Under the pieces are notes generated by a model. It had not been told where the DNA came from, made no database searches, and worked only from the letters and a program-made list of their open reading frames with translations. Positions 2,317 through 26,580 of a DNA stretch of 34,211 nucleotides are shown here, piece after piece. The DNA comes from a virus: the IMG/VR virus record IMGVR_UViG_3300037502_001401, positions 1-34,211 of that record; one strand, given 5' to 3'. Within the stretch, counting starts at the first letter, position 1; each line of letters opens with the position of its first letter. The translations under genes were made by a program, and so were the position numbers.

Positions 2317-3242
2317 CACTTCACGCCGATTGCGCCACCGCTTGCCGCCGTGGCGAGGACCAAATCCCGTGCCGAGTCGTCGGTGGATGCGGCGTCGAGT
2401 GGGCGCCCGTGTGCGTACTTTGCACCCGATCCCTGCACGACGGCCACGTCTGCGGACCCTGCGGATACAGGATCAGCCGCGACCTCGACGCCATCCTGGA
2501 GCTCACCGCGCAGGCGTTCACCCAGGTTGACCGCCCCAATCGCCCCGGCTCCGGCCGCTCCGTGCCGTCATCGCGTCCCCCGCTCGTCGTCGAGGCACTA
2601 GACCCCGAACTGGCATCCGTCCGGCTCATCGCCGACGACCCATCCTCCGACGTGCCACTCCTGGTGCTCCTAGAGGACTGGGAGCGCATCATCCGCGAGG
2701 ACCGGGGAATGGCGCCCTATGGCATGGCCTCAGAGGCGCGCCTCGCCGCCACCGGCCCACTCCACGGCGCCTCCTGGGCCAGACACACCCCCGTCACCCT
2801 GACCGGCGTAATCCGCTTCCTCCACGCCGTCCATGACTGGGTCCTCACCGAGCCCAGCTTCGACATCGCCGAATACGCCCGCCAGATACGCCTCTGCCGA
2901 CGCGCCGTGTCCCGCTGGGACGCCGACCTCGCCGAGCCCGGCTGGCGCGTGCCCTGCCCCACCGCCACCGACGACGGCGAGTGCGGCCAGGTGCTCAAGA
3001 TCAGCCGTGGTGCGGAGTCGGTCTACTGCCGAGCCTGCGGCCGGGAGTGGGAGATCACCCGCCTCCTCGCCGTCGCCGGACGCGACGCCGACGTGTGGGT
3101 CGACGTGGAGGCCGCAGCCACAATGGCCGGAGTCCACGAGCGCACCATCCGCAAATGGGTCGCACGAGGCAAAGTCCGCAAGCGCGGACAGCTCGTCCGC
3201 ATCCTTGACATCCGCGACTACGCGACCACGTTAGGGGCTTGA
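2313..3242 (+). CDS. Zinc-finger and helix-turn-helix protein, likely DNA-binding (actinophage type)
   Basis: The 309-residue protein has an N-terminal cysteine-rich module (about residues 7-51, with CVLC and CGPC pairs), a helical middle, a second cysteine module (residues about 215-243: CPTATDDGECG then YCRACGREW) and a C-terminal MerR/excisionase-like helix-turn-helix (EAAATMAGVHERTIRKWVARG) followed by a basic strand. Such proteins sit at the end of early operons in actinophages and probably bind DNA, but no activity is established by sequence alone. The start overlaps the previous stop (ATGA). The stop codon lies inside the -35 element of the next promoter. Confidence 0.68.
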   Translation: MTLHADCATACRRGEDQIPCRVVGGCGVEWAPVCVLCTRSLHDGHVCGPCGYRISRDLDAILELTAQAFTQVDRPNRPGSGRSVPSSRPPLVVEALDPELASVRLIADDPSSDVPLLVLLEDWERIIREDRGMAPYGMASEARLAATGPLHGASWARHTPVTLTGVIRFLHAVHDWVLTEPSFDIAEYARQIRLCRRAVSRWDADLAEPGWRVPCPTATDDGECGQVLKISRGAESVYCRACGREWEITRLLAVAGRDADVWVDVEAAATMAGVHERTIRKWVARGKVRKRGQLVRILDIRDYATTLGA

Positions 3243-3270
3243 CACATGGGGCCAAAAACTCTGATACAAT
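3239..3270 (+). promoter_or_regulatory. Sigma-70-like promoter for the nucleotidyltransferase gene
   Basis: A perfect TTGACA (3239-3244) is followed by TGATACAAT (3262-3270). Taking TACAAT as the -10 gives a 20-base spacer; taking TGATAC gives 17. It is the first break in a chain of overlapping genes and lies about 23-30 bases before the ATG at 3293, leaving a very short leader with no clear ribosome site. Confidence 0.6.
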
Positions 3271-3292
3271 CTAGCCCTCGGCGTCGTGCAAC

Positions 3293-3955
3293 ATGAGGGC
3301 GCTACTCCTCGCCGCAGGCGAGATGACCCGCTGGGACAACCACCTCGGACTACCCAAGCACCTCGCCCCCGTGCGAGGCGAGCCGCTGATCCACCGCACC
3401 CAACGCAAGCTCCACGCCCGAGGCGTGGACGACATCCGCGTCGTCTGCCAGACCGAGCGGGCCGACGCCTACATCCTCGACGGCATCGCCACCCACGCCG
3501 AGCCCGACTGGACTGGCGGCGGGCATCAGCACGAGTCCAGCCGACACCTGTGGCACAAGGCAGCCCCCACCGCAGTCATCTACGGTGACACCTACCTCAC
3601 CGACGCCCTCCTCGACGCCATCGTCGCCGACCCCGGCGACCCCTGGCACGTCTACGCCCGCTACGGCCCCAGCGAGATCACCGGCCGCAAATGGGGCGAG
3701 ATGCTGGCCTGGGTCATCGGCCCCGACCACCACGTCGCCATAGACCGCGCCACCGACCTCGCGCACATGGCCTACCGAGCCGGGACAACTAACCGCCTCC
3801 TGGGCTGGGAGGTCTACCGCGCCGCCGTCGGTCTACCCATAGACCTACACGTCCGCGAGGACACCCACTTCCGCGAGTGGGACGACGCCTCAGACGATTT
3901 TGACTATCCCGAGGACTACGAGACCTGGAGGGCACTCAACCCCCACCTAGCCTAG
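3293..3955 (+). CDS. Nucleotidyltransferase (MobA/sugar-nucleotide type, GT-A fold)
   Basis: The 220-residue protein opens with LLLAAGEMTRW and LPKHLAPVRGEPLI, a variant of the LAAGxGTR...PK signature of nucleoside-triphosphate transferases; the lysine of the PK pair is present. A YGDTYLTD segment around residue 97 supplies the metal-binding aspartate, and FDYPEDYETW near the C-terminus matches the terminal D-x-PEDY motif of MobA-like enzymes. The family joins an NTP to a sugar phosphate, a choline-type head group or a pterin; the acceptor here is unknown. It has its own promoter. A glycosyltransferase at 10576 could use a sugar nucleotide made by it, but that is inference. Confidence 0.8.
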   Translation: MRALLLAAGEMTRWDNHLGLPKHLAPVRGEPLIHRTQRKLHARGVDDIRVVCQTERADAYILDGIATHAEPDWTGGGHQHESSRHLWHKAAPTAVIYGDTYLTDALLDAIVADPGDPWHVYARYGPSEITGRKWGEMLAWVIGPDHHVAIDRATDLAHMAYRAGTTNRLLGWEVYRAAVGLPIDLHVREDTHFREWDDASDDFDYPEDYETWRALNPHLA

Positions 3956-7023: not shown

Positions 7024-7161
7024 ATGTTGAGCACCGCGCTAGAGCTCGCAGGCTTCGCCCTCATCGTGACCGCTGCCGCGCTTGTGGCTGTCCCGCTGGG
7101 GATGGCCGCGGCTGGGGTCTCTTGCATCCTTCTCGGCTACCTCTTGGGACGTGACCTGTGA
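7024..7161 (+). CDS. Small two-helix membrane protein
   Basis: This 45-residue protein is almost entirely hydrophobic, with two membrane-spanning stretches (LAGFALIVTAAALVAVPLG and MAAAGVSCILLGYLLG). A strong AGAGGAGG ribosome site sits 5-6 bases before the ATG and its stop overlaps the portal GTG. Small membrane proteins between terminase and portal recur in actinophages; the function is unknown. Confidence 0.75.
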   Translation: MLSTALELAGFALIVTAAALVAVPLGMAAAGVSCILLGYLLGRDL

Positions 7162-8579
7162 GCCTGTTCTCTAAGCGCCGCGCGCCCGAGGTGCGCCATG
7201 TCACGGGCGACGTCTCGGCCATGCTCACCGACTACCGCAATGCCCGCGTCGGCTCGCTCCTAGACATCTCGTCCGATCAGGCGATGCGCCACGCGGCCGT
7301 CTGGGCGTGTGTGCGGCTGATCGCGGGCACGGTCTCGACCCTGCCGGTGGACGTCGTGCGGACGACCCGCAACGGCCGCCAGGAGGTGACGGTCCCGCTC
7401 ATCGCGTCGCCCTCGGCCGTGGTCTCCCCCATCACCTGGCGCGATCAGATGATGGTGTCGCTTCTCCTGCGCGGTAACGCCTACGGCCTCATCACTCAGG
7501 TTGACCGCGCGGGCTACCCCGTCGCCGTCGAGCTCGTCCACCCCGACAAGGTGGCGGGCCGCGTCGAGGACGGCCGTGTCCGGCTGTCCTGGGATGGCGT
7601 CGAGCATGACCTGTGGCCGCTGGGTGATGCGATCCACGTCCCGGCCTTCACGGTCCCCGGCTCTCCCTTTGGGCTTTCGGTGCTGGACTACGCGCGCACG
7701 ACCATTGGCTCGGGATTGGCGTCCGAGGAGTGGGGTGCCCGCTTCTTCACCGACGGCGCCGTGCCTTCGGCCGTGCTGTCAACGGATCAGGCCATCACCC
7801 GCGAGCAAGCGCAGGAGCTCAAGGCCCGTTTCATGGCGGCTGTGGCTGGCAAGCGTGAGCCCGCCGTCCTGGGTGCCGGTGTCGCCTACACCCCGATCAG
7901 CGTGTCTCCTGGCGAGTCGGCCTTCCTTGAGACCTGGCGCATGTCCGGTGAGAATGTCTGCCGCCTCTTTGGCGTCCAGCCGGAGATGGTCGGACTGTCC
8001 AATAGCGGCAGCGGCTCGCTGACCTACGCCAGCCGCGAGCAGCGCGTCCAGGACTTTCTCGCCTTCACGCTCACGCCGTGGCTGGCGCGCGTCGAGGAGG
8101 CGCTAACCGCGCTCCTGCCCCCTGACCATGTGCTGCGCTTCCGCACGGGTGGCCTTCTGCGCGCCGACATCCAGACGCGCTACGCCGTCTACGAGGCCAG
8201 CGCCCGCATCTCGCAGATGACCGACGGCGCGATGCCGCTGACGGTCGAGGAGATGCGCGCCTTGGAGGACTTGCCGCCGCTGACCCGCGCCGAGGAGGTG
8301 CTGTCCCCGTCCGACATGGCCGAGGTGGCGCGTCGCCTCTACCTATCGGTCGGCAAGGTCGTCACGGTCGACGAGGCCCGCGAGATTCTGCGGCGCGCCG
8401 GTCTGCCGCTGGACACGCTCTCGCCCGAGGACGTGTTCTCAAATCTGCCGCCGATGCCATCAGCGGACCCCGGGGAGACACCCGACGATCCGGCCGCCGA
8501 GGTCGACCCGTCCGCAGACGCGGACGCCGACGCCGATGCGGACGCCGATCTACCCGACACCGATGAGGACAACGCATGA
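7158..8579 (+). CDS. Portal protein, HK97 family
   Basis: The 473-residue protein shows the HK97 portal pattern: AVWACVRLIAGTVSTLPVDV near residue 48, LLLRGNAYGLI, YARTTIGSGLASEEWGARFF and ICxL-like ENVCRLFGVQPEMVGL followed by TLTPWLARVEEAL. Twelve copies form the ring at the unique head vertex through which DNA enters. The C-terminal 25 residues are an acidic Asp-Ala repeat (DADADADADADLP) encoded by a GAC/GCC run and probably disordered. The GTG start overlaps the membrane-protein stop; the stop overlaps the protease start (ATGA). Confidence 0.95.
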   Translation: MSLFSKRRAPEVRHVTGDVSAMLTDYRNARVGSLLDISSDQAMRHAAVWACVRLIAGTVSTLPVDVVRTTRNGRQEVTVPLIASPSAVVSPITWRDQMMVSLLLRGNAYGLITQVDRAGYPVAVELVHPDKVAGRVEDGRVRLSWDGVEHDLWPLGDAIHVPAFTVPGSPFGLSVLDYARTTIGSGLASEEWGARFFTDGAVPSAVLSTDQAITREQAQELKARFMAAVAGKREPAVLGAGVAYTPISVSPGESAFLETWRMSGENVCRLFGVQPEMVGLSNSGSGSLTYASREQRVQDFLAFTLTPWLARVEEALTALLPPDHVLRFRTGGLLRADIQTRYAVYEASARISQMTDGAMPLTVEEMRALEDLPPLTRAEEVLSPSDMAEVARRLYLSVGKVVTVDEAREILRRAGLPLDTLSPEDVFSNLPPMPSADPGETPDDPAAEVDPSADADADADADADLPDTDEDNA

Positions 8580-10468
8580 CAGACGTCCCTAACCTTGAGC
8601 GCCGCACCGCGGACGCCCGCTGGGAGGTCCGCGAGGAGCCCGATGGCTCTGTGGGCCTGCGCGGCTACGCGGCCGTATTCGATGCCCCCGCCCACGGCGA
8701 GGTCGTCAAGCGCGGCGCCTTTGACCGCTCACTTGCCGAGGGTCCCGTCGTCGAGTTGCTGTTCGATCACGAGGGCATCCCTATGGCGTCTACGCGCGGC
8801 GGCACTATGTCGCTGTCGGTAGATGACAACGGCCTCGTGGTCGACGTCCCTGCGCTAGACATGGACTCCCCCTACGTCAGGTCCATCGTCTCGGCGATGC
8901 GCCGCGGCGACCTCCAGAAGATGTCCTTTGCCTTCTTCACCCGTGAGGACTATTACGACCCCGAGTCCCGCACGAGGGAGCTGCGGGATGTTTCGCTAGT
9001 AGACGTCTCGGTAGTCACGAGACCTTGGTACGACCAGACATCCGTCGCCCTCAAGAGCGACGCCACAGACCTAGTCGAGGCAAGAGACGCCTCGGCTACA
9101 TCCGAGCAGACCGAGACCGAGGCCCGCGACGACGTCGCGCCCGAGGTGGAGGCCGACCTCGGAACGCCCACCCCAATCCCGACCACAGGAGATACACGAA
9201 TGTCAGACCACGACATCGTCGAGCCGGTCGAGGCGCGATCCGAGGAGAACGCCCCCACCGAGCTTGAGTCCCGCGTCGCTGCCGTCGAGGCACGCGCCGA
9301 CCTGGAGGCCCGCATCGCGCAGCTTGAGTCGCGCGCCGCTGCCACCGCCGAGGCTCGCGCCTACGATCAGGTCGCTCGCGTGACCCGCGAGGAGCGCACC
9401 TACAACCCCGACGCCGACAAGCGTGGGGTGTCCTTCATCCACGACGTCATCGCCCGCACCTTCGGCGACATGGACGCCGCTCAGCGCCTCTCCAAGCATC
9501 AGGCCGAGGAGCGCACCGAGCGCGGCTCGGCGCTGGAGGCCCGCGCCATCGGCACGTCGGCGCTCGGCGCTCTCGTGGTGCCGCAGTACCTCACCGACCT
9601 TGTGGCGCCGCTGGCCCGCGCCGGTCGTCCCACCGCAGACATCTGCAACATCATGCCGCTCCCGGCCGAGGGCATGACGGTCGAGATTCCCCGCATCACC
9701 ACGGGCACCTCGGCTGCGACCCAGGCCACGCAGAACACGTCCGTCAGCGAGACCAACCTTGACGAGACGACCCTCTCGGTGCCGGTCGTGACCATCGCCG
9801 GTCAGCAGACGGTGTCAGTCCAGGCGCTCTCGCGTGGCCGTGGCACCGAGCAGATCATCATCCGCGACCTCGTGGCTGCCTACAATTCGCAGCTTGACGC
9901 GCAGATCATCAGCGGCAGCGGCTCAACCGGCTTCCACCGCGGCATCCTCAACACGGCGAGCATCCAGTCCGTCACCTACACGGACTCCAGCCCGACCGTC
10001 GCCGAGGTCTACCCCAAGCTGTTCGATCTCATCCAGAAGGTCCAGAGCGGCTACTTCGGTGGTATCTCGCACTTCCTGATGCACCCAAGGCGTTGGAACT
10101 GGATGGCGGCAGCGGTGTCCACGTCCTCGCCCTTCCTCCAGATCAACACGAATCCGCAGGGCGCGGCGGGCCAGTTCGGCGCACCGTCCTACGGCGGCGT
10201 CGTCGGCAACATCGCGGGCGTGCCCGTCGTGCTGGACGCGAACATCGCCACGACCACGGCGACCGATCAGGACACGATCTACGGCGTGACCGCTTCCGAG
10301 CTTCACCTGTGGGAGGACGCGGGCGCGCCGCTGTTCATCCGCGTCGAGCAGCCGAGCACCCTTGGCGTGACGCTGGCGGCCTTTGGGTTCACCGCGTTTA
10401 CGGCAGCCAGATACCCGGCAGCCCACGGGAAAATTTCTGGCAGTGGATTGGCCCAGCCCGTTTTCTAG
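8576..10468 (+). CDS. Fused prohead protease - major capsid protein (HK97 fold)
   Basis: One open frame of 630 codons joins two usually separate genes. Residues 1 to about 165 are an HK97-type prohead protease (RGYAAVFDAPA, the LLFDHEG histidine at 65, the KMSFAF serine at 117, VSVVTRPWYDQT). A Thr/Glu-rich linker follows, then from residue 209 a helical scaffold-like delta segment (ESRVAAVEARADLEARIAQL) and the capsid fold (GALVVPQYLTDLVAPLARAG ... SHFLMHPRRW ... VPVVLDANI). An in-frame ATG at 9200 has its own strong ribosome site, so free capsid protein of 422 residues is probably made in excess of the fusion. The protease would cut the linker and scaffold during head maturation. Confidence 0.93.
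   Translation: MTDVPNLERRTADARWEVREEPDGSVGLRGYAAVFDAPAHGEVVKRGAFDRSLAEGPVVELLFDHEGIPMASTRGGTMSLSVDDNGLVVDVPALDMDSPYVRSIVSAMRRGDLQKMSFAFFTREDYYDPESRTRELRDVSLVDVSVVTRPWYDQTSVALKSDATDLVEARDASATSEQTETEARDDVAPEVEADLGTPTPIPTTGDTRMSDHDIVEPVEARSEENAPTELESRVAAVEARADLEARIAQLESRAAATAEARAYDQVARVTREERTYNPDADKRGVSFIHDVIARTFGDMDAAQRLSKHQAEERTERGSALEARAIGTSALGALVVPQYLTDLVAPLARAGRPTADICNIMPLPAEGMTVEIPRITTGTSAATQATQNTSVSETNLDETTLSVPVVTIAGQQTVSVQALSRGRGTEQIIIRDLVAAYNSQLDAQIISGSGSTGFHRGILNTASIQSVTYTDSSPTVAEVYPKLFDLIQKVQSGYFGGISHFLMHPRRWNWMAAAVSTSSPFLQINTNPQGAAGQFGAPSYGGVVGNIAGVPVVLDANIATTTATDQDTIYGVTASELHLWEDAGAPLFIRVEQPSTLGVTLAAFGFTAFTAARYPAAHGKISGSGLAQPVF
9187..9202 (+). promoter_or_regulatory. Internal ribosome site and in-frame start for free capsid protein
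   Basis: ACAGGAGA (9186-9193) lies seven to eight bases before ATG 9200, in frame with the fusion and exactly at the protease/capsid border. The sequence upstream encodes the proline/threonine linker, so the site looks like a retained gene start rather than chance. Confidence 0.75.
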
Positions 10469-24983: not shown

Positions 24984-25112
24984 ACCTAGGGATTGATTCC
25001 CTCAGTCCCTAACGTAAGAGTTACGGACATAAACCCGCGTCGCTAATCACTTTTCCGACACGCCGTGATGTCAGCCAGGTGTGCCACTCTCACCTGCGGG
25101 GAGGTATCACCT

Positions 25113-26288
25113 GTGCGTATCGGCTCACTCTTTAGCGGCTACGGCGGCCTAGACATGGCCGTCAACTCAGTCTTAGGCGGCTCTGTCGCTTGGCACGTCG
25201 AGTACGACAAAGCGCCATCCCGCATCCTCGCCCACCACCACCCCGACGTACCCAACTACGGCGACGTTACCCAGGTGGATTTCACGACCATTGAACCCGT
25301 CGACGTACTGACAGGCGGCTACCCATGCCAGCCATTCAGCCACGCTGGCCTGCGGAAAGGCACCGACGATGAGCGACACCTGTGGCCTCACGTCCTGCGA
25401 GCCATTTGCGAGATGGGACCGCGACTCGCAATCTTGGAGAACGTCCGCGGCCACCTCTCTTTGGGATTTGGAACTGTCCTCGCTGACCTTGCCAGCGTGG
25501 GGTGGTCTGCACGATGGGGAATTGTGCGAGCATCAGACGCCGGAGCTTGCCACCAACGTGCTCGACTATTCATCGTTGCCTACCCCAGCGGCGATACCTG
25601 GGGCGAGCGACCTCAACTTCCAAGTGTCAGGGGATGGCAGGACGAAGCCCAACAAGCTGGGGTGGGCCATCGGGGAAATGCTGCCGACGCCGACAACGGA
25701 CGACGCCGGCAATATCACCAGGGAGAGCGGGGCGTTTCAGTCGCTGACCAGATCGGTGCAGATGCTCCCGACACCAGCCGTAAACGACATGGGCGAGGGC
25801 AAGACGCTGGAGTGGTGGGACGACTGGGCACCCCGTCAGAAGTCGTCGGACGGCAGGCCAGCCCCGCATGGCAGGTGGCTGGCGATAGAGGCACTGAGGC
25901 TGCTGCCCACGCCGACGACCGAGCACTCCTCGGGCGGCTACAACCCCGCATGGGGGCACGGGATGACGCTGCTAGATGCAGCCAAGGAAATTGTGGGACA
26001 GCCTGGGGCGACTACGGTCCCGCCATCTCCCGATGGGAAAGCATCCTCGGCCGACCCGCACCCTCACCTACTGAGCCTGGACGGACTGGCGCACCCCGCC
26101 TAGCCCCACGTTTCGTGGAATGGATGATGGGCCTGCCAGACGGGCACGTCACAGACCCCGCCATCGGGATCAGCCGCAATGACCAACTCAAGGCGCTGGG
26201 CAATGGCGTGGTGCCCCAGCAAGCGGCCCTCGCGCTCAGGCACCTACTGCCCCAGTGGGCAGTTCACCCCGTTGACGTAGTGCTCTAG
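25113..26288 (+). CDS. DNA (cytosine-5-)-methyltransferase
   Basis: The 391-residue enzyme has the m5C motifs in order: SLFSGYGGLDMA (I), the catalytic PCQPF with Cys72 (IV), ENVRGHL (VI), HQRARLFIVA (VIII) and NDQLKALGNGVVPQQAA (X). It transfers methyl from S-adenosylmethionine to cytosine, probably shielding phage DNA from host restriction; no partner endonuclease is seen. GTG 25113 has GGGGAGG eight bases upstream and starts right at motif I. Between motif VIII and FVEWMMGLPDGHV the target-recognition region is rich in Arg, Gln, Ala and Asp and shows weak G/C third-position bias because another frame (25369-26103) is read through it. Confidence 0.9.
   Translation: MRIGSLFSGYGGLDMAVNSVLGGSVAWHVEYDKAPSRILAHHHPDVPNYGDVTQVDFTTIEPVDVLTGGYPCQPFSHAGLRKGTDDERHLWPHVLRAICEMGPRLAILENVRGHLSLGFGTVLADLASVGWSARWGIVRASDAGACHQRARLFIVAYPSGDTWGERPQLPSVRGWQDEAQQAGVGHRGNAADADNGRRRQYHQGERGVSVADQIGADAPDTSRKRHGRGQDAGVVGRLGTPSEVVGRQASPAWQVAGDRGTEAAAHADDRALLGRLQPRMGARDDAARCSQGNCGTAWGDYGPAISRWESILGRPAPSPTEPGRTGAPRLAPRFVEWMMGLPDGHVTDPAIGISRNDQLKALGNGVVPQQAALALRHLLPQWAVHPVDVVL
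25369..26103 (+). CDS. Overprinted 244-residue protein inside the methyltransferase gene (+1 frame)
   Basis: A 245-codon frame lies wholly within the methyltransferase gene. It begins MSDTCGLTSCEPFARWDRDS and carries four copies of a (L)PTP motif (SLPTPAAIPGASD, MLPTPTTDDAGN, MLPTPAVNDMGEG, LLPTPTTEHSSGG) plus EWWDDWAPRQKSSDG, which look like a real repeat protein and not noise. In a hand count of 40 codons from 25561, 75% end in G or C in this frame against 52% in the methyltransferase frame. I recall similar MSDTCG/PTP-repeat proteins lying by phage dcm genes, but know no function. An AAAGG site 9-13 bases before ATG is weak. Confidence 0.72.
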   Translation: MSDTCGLTSCEPFARWDRDSQSWRTSAATSLWDLELSSLTLPAWGGLHDGELCEHQTPELATNVLDYSSLPTPAAIPGASDLNFQVSGDGRTKPNKLGWAIGEMLPTPTTDDAGNITRESGAFQSLTRSVQMLPTPAVNDMGEGKTLEWWDDWAPRQKSSDGRPAPHGRWLAIEALRLLPTPTTEHSSGGYNPAWGHGMTLLDAAKEIVGQPGATTVPPSPDGKASSADPHPHLLSLDGLAHPA

Positions 26289-26408
26289 GGCGCGTCGAAT
26301 AACCTCAGACACGCTGACGCCATCGTCTGCCGCTTTGGCCTGAGCATCACGCCATAGGTCATCATCTACTCGAACATTGCGGAGCGGTGTCTTTGGCGCG
26401 TTAGGCAT
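26244..26408 (-). CDS. Ribbon-helix-helix (CopG/Arc-like) DNA-binding protein
   Basis: The 54-residue protein shows the RHH pattern: a strand TPLRNVRVDDDLW, helix RDAQAKAADDG and helix VSVSEVIRRALEHYV. RHH dimers insert the strand in the major groove, often at tandem palindromes. It is the last gene of a leftward three-gene operon whose promoter carries twin palindromes, so it may repress its own operon. The ATG at 26408 overlaps the previous stop by 8 bases; the gene end overlaps the methyltransferase end by 45 bases on the other strand. Confidence 0.82.
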   Translation of the reverse strand: MPNAPKTPLRNVRVDDDLWRDAQAKAADDGVSVSEVIRRALEHYVNGVNCPLGQ

Positions 26409-26580
26409 TGGTAACTCCCGTGAAGAGCAGGGCGCCATCGCCGCACGCGGGGCAGACCTCGTGGACGCCGATAATGGCGGCAAGTCCAGCGGAGTCGGTC
26501 ACGGTGTGCCCGCAGGCGCGGCACTCAATTTTGGTGGCGGTGTAGGTGACGCCGTAGTCATCAATGAATGTGGTGGTCAT
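26401..26580 (-). CDS. Small zinc-ribbon protein
   Basis: The 59-residue protein has two CxxC knuckles 26 residues apart (CRACGH and CPACGD), a classical zinc ribbon, with a beta-rich N-terminus (TTTFIDDYGVTYTATKIE). It starts at an ATGA overlap with the gene before it, so it is the middle gene of the leftward operon. Partner and role unknown; zinc ribbons of this size commonly bind nucleic acid or protein. Confidence 0.72.
   Translation of the reverse strand: MTTTFIDDYGVTYTATKIECRACGHTVTDSAGLAAIIGVHEVCPACGDGALLFTGVTNA

Follow-up and report, generated by a model that had tools for sequence, protein, structure and literature searches.

A second gene nested in the +1 frame of a viral cytosine-5 DNA methyltransferase gene and its candidate role as a specificity subunit

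Known two-polypeptide enzymes and the nested locus

Long overlapping genes on the same strand are rare and usually weakly supported. Among cytosine-5 DNA methyltransferases, M.EcoHK31I (recognition sequence YGGCCR) is said to have the gene for its small polypeptide lying out of frame within that for the large one, as reportedly described by Lee et al. in 1995. The Bacillus phage enzymes of the SPR and phi3T type, reportedly shown by Behrens et al. in 1987 to be multispecific (work cited in PMC4081073), have multiple variable units between motifs VIII and IX. The large subunit of M.EcoHK31I holds motifs I-VIII and X and is accompanied by a smaller second polypeptide; the predicted target-recognition domain was assigned to the large subunit, and in cytosine-5 methyltransferases it is the small domain that makes specific DNA contacts (PMC3404938).

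The locus studied here belongs to a 34.2-kb viral record, the whole of which (34,211 nt) is referred to as the window and which carries genes for a terminase, tape measure, endolysin, exonuclease/RecT and integrase. The window is otherwise a lone viral record, with weak matches in 3 of the 297 actinobacterial genomes searched. Going by its description, M.EcoHK31I resembles the locus in that a second polypeptide (beta) is encoded in another frame within the gene of the large subunit (alpha), and in that the large subunit holds motifs I-VIII and X. It differs in that motif IX of the window lies in alpha and beta has four modules bounded by LPTP motifs. The exact M.EcoHK31I layout, with motif IX in beta and motif X in alpha, is found in the relatives L048, L054, L061 and L067.

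Like M.AquI and the split gene pairs of actinophages, the window has motifs I-VIII in alpha and a variable region in beta. In those systems, however, alpha ends past motif VIII and beta contains motifs IX-X, whereas the window alpha continues to motif X. The M.AquI-type split architecture occurs in L001, L003, L203 and L204, not in the window; in the phages Catdawg and Andrew, the annotated alpha and beta genes share about 210-240 nt in the +1 register. With the SPR and phi3T enzymes the locus has in common tandem variable units between motifs VIII and IX, but there all units stand in one polypeptide and one frame, and for the LPTP modules we infer a recognition role. The closest profile is phrog_1008 ('DNA methyltransferase', PHROGs). 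Beta matches its positions 61-212 of 329 (E=1.3e-14) and the alpha C-terminus matches positions 198-319 of the same profile, which combines the N-terminal domain, modules and motifs IX-X in one frame, whereas the window splits them over two.

The first-pass annotation of the window had called the embedded protein so far undescribed. This was too strong in view of phrog_1008, the annotated actinophage alpha/beta pairs and the M.EcoHK31I precedent (PMC3404938). M.EcoHK31I and the annotated split phage genes already exemplify this kind of arrangement. What is new, as far as the literature searched shows, is the nested variant in which alpha holds motif IX, together with the selection and start-site evidence, the breadth of occurrence and the frame-changing modules; our literature search found no description of nested beta genes as a general family.

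Layout of the outer and embedded genes

Alpha extends over positions 25113-26288 of the plus strand (391 aa). Its start is most likely the GTG at 25113, with a Shine-Dalgarno-like GGGGAGG (25098-25104) 8 nt upstream, rather than position 25065. The protein matched PF00145 (E=3.4e-35), TIGR00675 and phrog_363 and contains all PF00145 features considered, i.e., PCQ (25314), ENV (25434), QxRxR (25554), motif IX (26091) and motif X (26199). Its motifs I-VIII are followed by a low-complexity stretch read across the beta modules and then by motifs IX and X. Motif IV (GGYPCQPF, 25314-25337) lies 5' of the overlap, and motifs I-IV, IX and X are outside it. The earlier statement that all catalytic motifs avoid the overlap was incorrect, with motif VI (ENV, 25434-25442) and motif VIII (QRAR, 25554-25565) located inside. 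A conserved WGDYGPAISRWES segment at 26004-26046, read in the other frame as the beta tail, precedes the motif IX region (PRLAPRFVEWMMGLPDG, 26091-26144), which belongs to alpha here and to beta in the M.EcoHK31I-like relatives. Motif X is present as the sequence GNGVVP at 26199-26216.

Beta was found as first described, a long frame with an MSDTCG start lying wholly within alpha in the +1 register. It spans 25369-26103 on the plus strand and encodes 244 aa from an ATG, with a ribosome-binding site, GGAAAGG (25354-25360), 8 nt 5' of this codon. The N-terminal domain (FARWDRDSQSWRTS...TLPAWGGLHDGEL, 25390-25575) is coded over alpha motifs VI-VIII. It is followed by module 1 (LPTPAAIPGASDLNFQVSGDGRTKPNKLGWAIGEM, 25576-25677), for which a similar module occurs in L068, a distant phage of the class with motif IX in beta, and by the LPTP-bounded module 2 (LPTPTTDDAGNITRESGAFQSLTRSVQM, 25678-25764). 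Module 3 (LPTPAVNDMGEGKTLEWWDDW...LAIEALRL, 25765-25899) belongs to a module cluster (cluster 2) represented in 11 loci and in both the alpha and beta frames, and module 4 (LPTPTTEHSSGGYNPAWGHGMTLLDAA...) occupies 25900-26003. The four LPTP motifs reported earlier are present (25576, 25678, 25765 and 25900), but they are not regularly placed, with spacings of 34, 29 and 45 codons.

The third-position GC content in the overlap is 0.76 in the beta frame and 0.57 in the alpha frame, and for alpha outside the overlap it is 0.75 upstream and 0.77 downstream. A recount of the 40-codon sample used in the first-pass annotation gave 0.75 for the embedded frame and 0.55 for the methyltransferase, against the 75% and 52% given there. 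At 263 codons, the open stretch in the +1 register exceeds every other alternate frame among 15 long genes of the window, the next measuring 190 codons. Further long alternate-frame open stretches of 189 and 190 codons were noted at 7158-8579 and 8576-10468. Pfam and NCBIfam searches with beta gave no match, and a PDB sequence search returned only weak, implausible matches to glycolipid-transfer proteins.

Selection and start-site evidence for the embedded frame

We gathered about 100 distinct loci and took motif IV in each as the reference for placing the +1 frame, with shuffled synonymous codons of the outer gene as a null model. In the window alone, a stop-free +1 frame is unremarkable (P = 0.23 under synonymous shuffling), and the first LPTP results when the codons for 'VAYP' in motif VIII are read in the +1 frame. 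Both observations would suit a by-product, in which a GC-rich variable region of the methyltransferase has ADAD/APDT repeats that happen to read as LPTP in the +1 frame. The relatives make such an origin extremely improbable. The window has four LPTP motifs against 0.28 expected, a number reached in 0 of 1000 shuffles, and LPTP counts were far above the shuffled expectation in most loci tested. Of 74 loci, the window among them, 69 have an embedded frame free of stops over the stretch tested. These include phages of only 41-51% GC, where shuffled sequences average 1.3-5.5 stops. The start site is conserved as well, and in fused and split genes these modules form part of the translated frame.

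The constraint on each frame points the same way. Across the module region, 409 gap-free matches, which have loci in common and are therefore not independent, differed by 0.230, 0.203 and 0.421 at beta codon positions 1, 2 and 3. Protein identity in these matches was 0.695 for beta, as compared to 0.438 for alpha and 0.453 for the unused third frame, so that the embedded frame is favored and the outer frame is unconstrained there. For the family, this codon-position and identity pattern rules out a chance open reading frame. The window and its four nearest relatives gave 0.055/0.086/0.225 at the beta positions, with identities in this group of 0.866 for beta, 0.72 for alpha and 0.70 for the third frame. 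The suggestion that two proteins share this DNA was thus borne out by codon-position, identity and start-site evidence in the relatives, and comparison across loci confirmed, at the sequence level, a genuine second protein coded in the DNA of alpha.

Because alpha identity equals that of the third frame and substitutions accumulate at beta position 3, the alpha reading is, on these figures, passive and unconstrained over the LPTP modules in the relatives. It is nevertheless translated there, judging from the 6 stops found against 92.7 expected, all 6 occurring in the split loci L001, L003 and L075. Over motifs VI-VIII the alpha frame leads in the window's group, with differences of 0.139/0.063/0.263 at its codon positions; the beta N-terminal domain adds little constraint in this close group, as alpha third positions vary by 0.263. 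In several close pairs, alpha has fewer synonymous differences across motifs VI-VIII (a drop from 14/38 to 1/39, from 24/33 to 7/29 and from 23/40 to 6/35). With all pairs, the drop is only 0.069 (bootstrap 0.040-0.101), small because divergent pairs are saturated at synonymous sites. The earlier claim that the embedded frame dominates selection consequently holds for the LPTP region and not for motifs VI-VIII, where alpha leads and synonymous constraint is partial.

The beta ATG derives from an outer-frame Asp codon, GAT, and the G that follows it. At this fixed Asp, GC-rich relatives use GAT and GAC in a ratio of 22:6, compared to 29:102 for matching contexts further upstream (p=3.5e-10). 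Similarly, AAAGG is present in 20 of the 22 GC-rich relatives with a beta ATG, while AAA represents 14% of the upstream alpha Lys codons (p=2e-11). L061 and L063 (51% GC) have AAAAGGAGGT at the start site. By these counts, the beta ATG and its Shine-Dalgarno sequence are maintained through the use of rare codons by the outer gene, and the conserved ATG and AAAGG site points to internal initiation, not frameshifting. Programmed frameshifting would produce one long protein that passes from alpha motifs I-VIII into the LPTP frame and back to motifs IX-X, and its domains would then be ordered much as in the fused relatives L038 and L177. The window class, however, would require two opposite shifts, and the overlap codes both motifs VI-VIII and the beta N-terminal domain in two frames, whereas the fused relatives hold both serially. 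Since motif VIII is followed by the N-terminal domain in the fused proteins and both use the same bases in the nested genes, only two separate translations would yield both. A single frameshifted product is disfavored by this overlap of two segments that are consecutive in fused relatives, and with the ATG and Shine-Dalgarno sequence also conserved we consider it very unlikely.

A start codon at the usual place is missing in 30 of 94 homologues. L090-L099 and L107, from actinobacterial genomes and without the usual ATG, have in common a GTG located 9-15 nt downstream that derives from a Ser AGT codon, often with an AAGGA-like sequence upstream. This GTG is possibly an alternative beta start.

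Arrangements in relatives and the proposed enzyme

Four arrangements occur among the relatives, in which frame A denotes that of alpha and frame B that of beta. In the window class, the LPTP modules are in frame B and motifs IX and X in frame A. A second class of 23 loci, e.g., L054 at 42% GC, has motif IX in B and motif X in A. In the split class, alpha stops past motif VIII and beta has the modules and motifs IX and X, as found for Gordonia phages Upyo (gp54/53) and Float294, Mycobacterium phage Catdawg (gp6/5) and Arthrobacter phage Andrew (gp43/44). In the fourth arrangement the modules are in frame A, partly in L019, L022 and L034 and wholly in L038, L177 and L186. The order in fused proteins is motifs I-VIII, beta N-terminal domain, LPTP modules and motifs IX-X; in L038 and L186, the modules and motifs IX-X are in the alpha frame.

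An HMM derived from the N-termini of 74 nested beta proteins, with L177 left out, matched the fused L177 chain at residues 197-262, directly past motif VIII (domain E 1e-9; the best of 2000 shuffled decoys scored 0.015 for the whole sequence). Its position C-terminal to motif VIII indicates that the beta N-terminal domain exists as a protein element in its own right and is no shadow of motifs VI-VIII. The fused genes also serve as natural controls: their +1 frame contains 3-14 stops and 0-2 LPTP motifs, and L038 lacks the ATG. A mixed nested and fused state was seen in L019, L022 and L034, where one module is in frame B behind a conserved ATG and the others are in frame A. The record of Rhodococcus phage ReT1v-2 (L002) lists the beta frame (2501-3405) as a 'hypothetical protein' and only a 50-aa alpha tail as 'DNA methyltransferase', the catalytic part of alpha being unannotated. 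Methyltransferase genes carried on plasmids of Nostoc, Halotia, Leptospira and Bacteroides, and of the archaeon Methanomethylovorans, also contain nested beta frames; for these, the outer gene alone is listed in a plasmid gene table that is incomplete.

The comparisons establish that the DNA is dual-coding, that beta has a start of its own and is homologous to the segment inside fused enzymes, and that modules are shuffled. On this basis it is highly probable that the locus encodes one cytosine-5 methyltransferase made as two polypeptides, with beta as the segment between motifs VIII and IX. Alpha would provide the catalytic domain with motifs I-VIII, followed by a linker under little constraint and by motifs IX-X. 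Beta, translated from its own internal ribosome-binding site, would contribute a small beta-strand domain and the four LPTP-bounded modules. Together they would assemble into an active enzyme in which beta serves as the DNA-recognising small domain and the modules as target-recognition units exchanged as cassettes between phages. The phage could thereby methylate and shield several restriction sites. Self-protection against host restriction is the likely benefit, as no restriction enzyme gene was noticed near the locus in an unsystematic look.

Of the two roles offered in the first-pass annotation, methyltransferase partner and anti-restriction protein, only the former agrees with the fused and split relatives and with phrog_1008. 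An independent protein that merely shares the locus would be in line with the benefit of anti-restriction genes to phages and with the empty Pfam and NCBIfam searches. Its existence as a free protein is nonetheless very doubtful, since beta-type segments in relatives are fused inside methyltransferases or bear motifs IX-X, and all beta proteins tested match the profile comprising the N-terminal domain, modules and motifs IX-X (E 1e-15 to 1e-30 for the others). A different role for the modules within a two-polypeptide enzyme deserves more weight. The distance from LPTP to LPTP has a median of 34 residues (5-95%: 25-59), and the modules cluster into recurring types that appear in unrelated loci in varied order, number and frame (A or B). 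Modules 3 and 4 of the window recur in L004 at 87-93% DNA identity and in opposite order. The modules could form a structural or regulatory repeat, for which the common LPTP..D..G pattern would be a scaffold; their low predicted structure and the lack of a demonstrated match to known recognition domains agree with this, and we regard it as quite possible, though not probable. On the other side, the four shuffled modules are positioned between motifs VIII and IX, the usual place of recognition domains, and their size of about 34 residues, variable number and distinct shuffled types are as expected for cassettes under diversifying selection. The LPTP modules are probably target-recognition units.

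Structure prediction was informative mainly outside the modules. The AF2 model of L177 had a mean pLDDT of 68.6; the catalytic domain and the strands of the beta N-terminal domain were confident, the modules were not, with pLDDT below 50 across most of residues 247-358. For the window beta (mean pLDDT 57), the N-terminal strands alone were moderately confident, and four strands were predicted at places corresponding to the N-terminal domain of L177. The models thus lend no structural support to a recognition role, and the assignment of the predicted target-recognition domain to the large subunit in M.EcoHK31I (PMC3404938) also speaks against such a role for beta. As expected, Foldseek and VIA matched the L177 model to M.HhaI and other cytosine-5 methyltransferases; the full-length VIA alignment to M.HhaI (Z 17.4, 253 aligned residues, 3.7 A, model residues 3-454 versus 1-327) says nothing on the modules. 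The longest module array among the loci examined was seen in L078, which has at least seven LPTP motifs in frame B from position 2318 onward.

In a broader proposal, on which we are evenly divided, the locus represents a widespread family in which the overprinted specificity subunit would be a library of LPTP-bounded recognition cassettes, each some 34 residues long, that are exchanged among phages and move from one frame to another, so that targets could be changed or added with the catalytic domain untouched. Comparison of many loci strongly supports the overlap itself, both in phages and on plasmids from Cyanobacteriota, Spirochaetota, Bacteroidota and a methanogen. Should beta prove to be the specificity subunit, many genes listed as 'DNA cytosine methyltransferase' would be annotated with only half the enzyme, and recoded expression of the annotated open reading frame would destroy the other half. 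The natural fused, split and nested versions make the migration of a segment between reading frames directly testable.

At the 3' end of the methyltransferase gene, a 79-aa open reading frame on the minus strand (26244-26483) overlaps alpha from the opposite side and resembles a ribbon-helix-helix antitoxin (VRVDDDLWRDAQAKAADDGVSVSEVIRRALEHYV).
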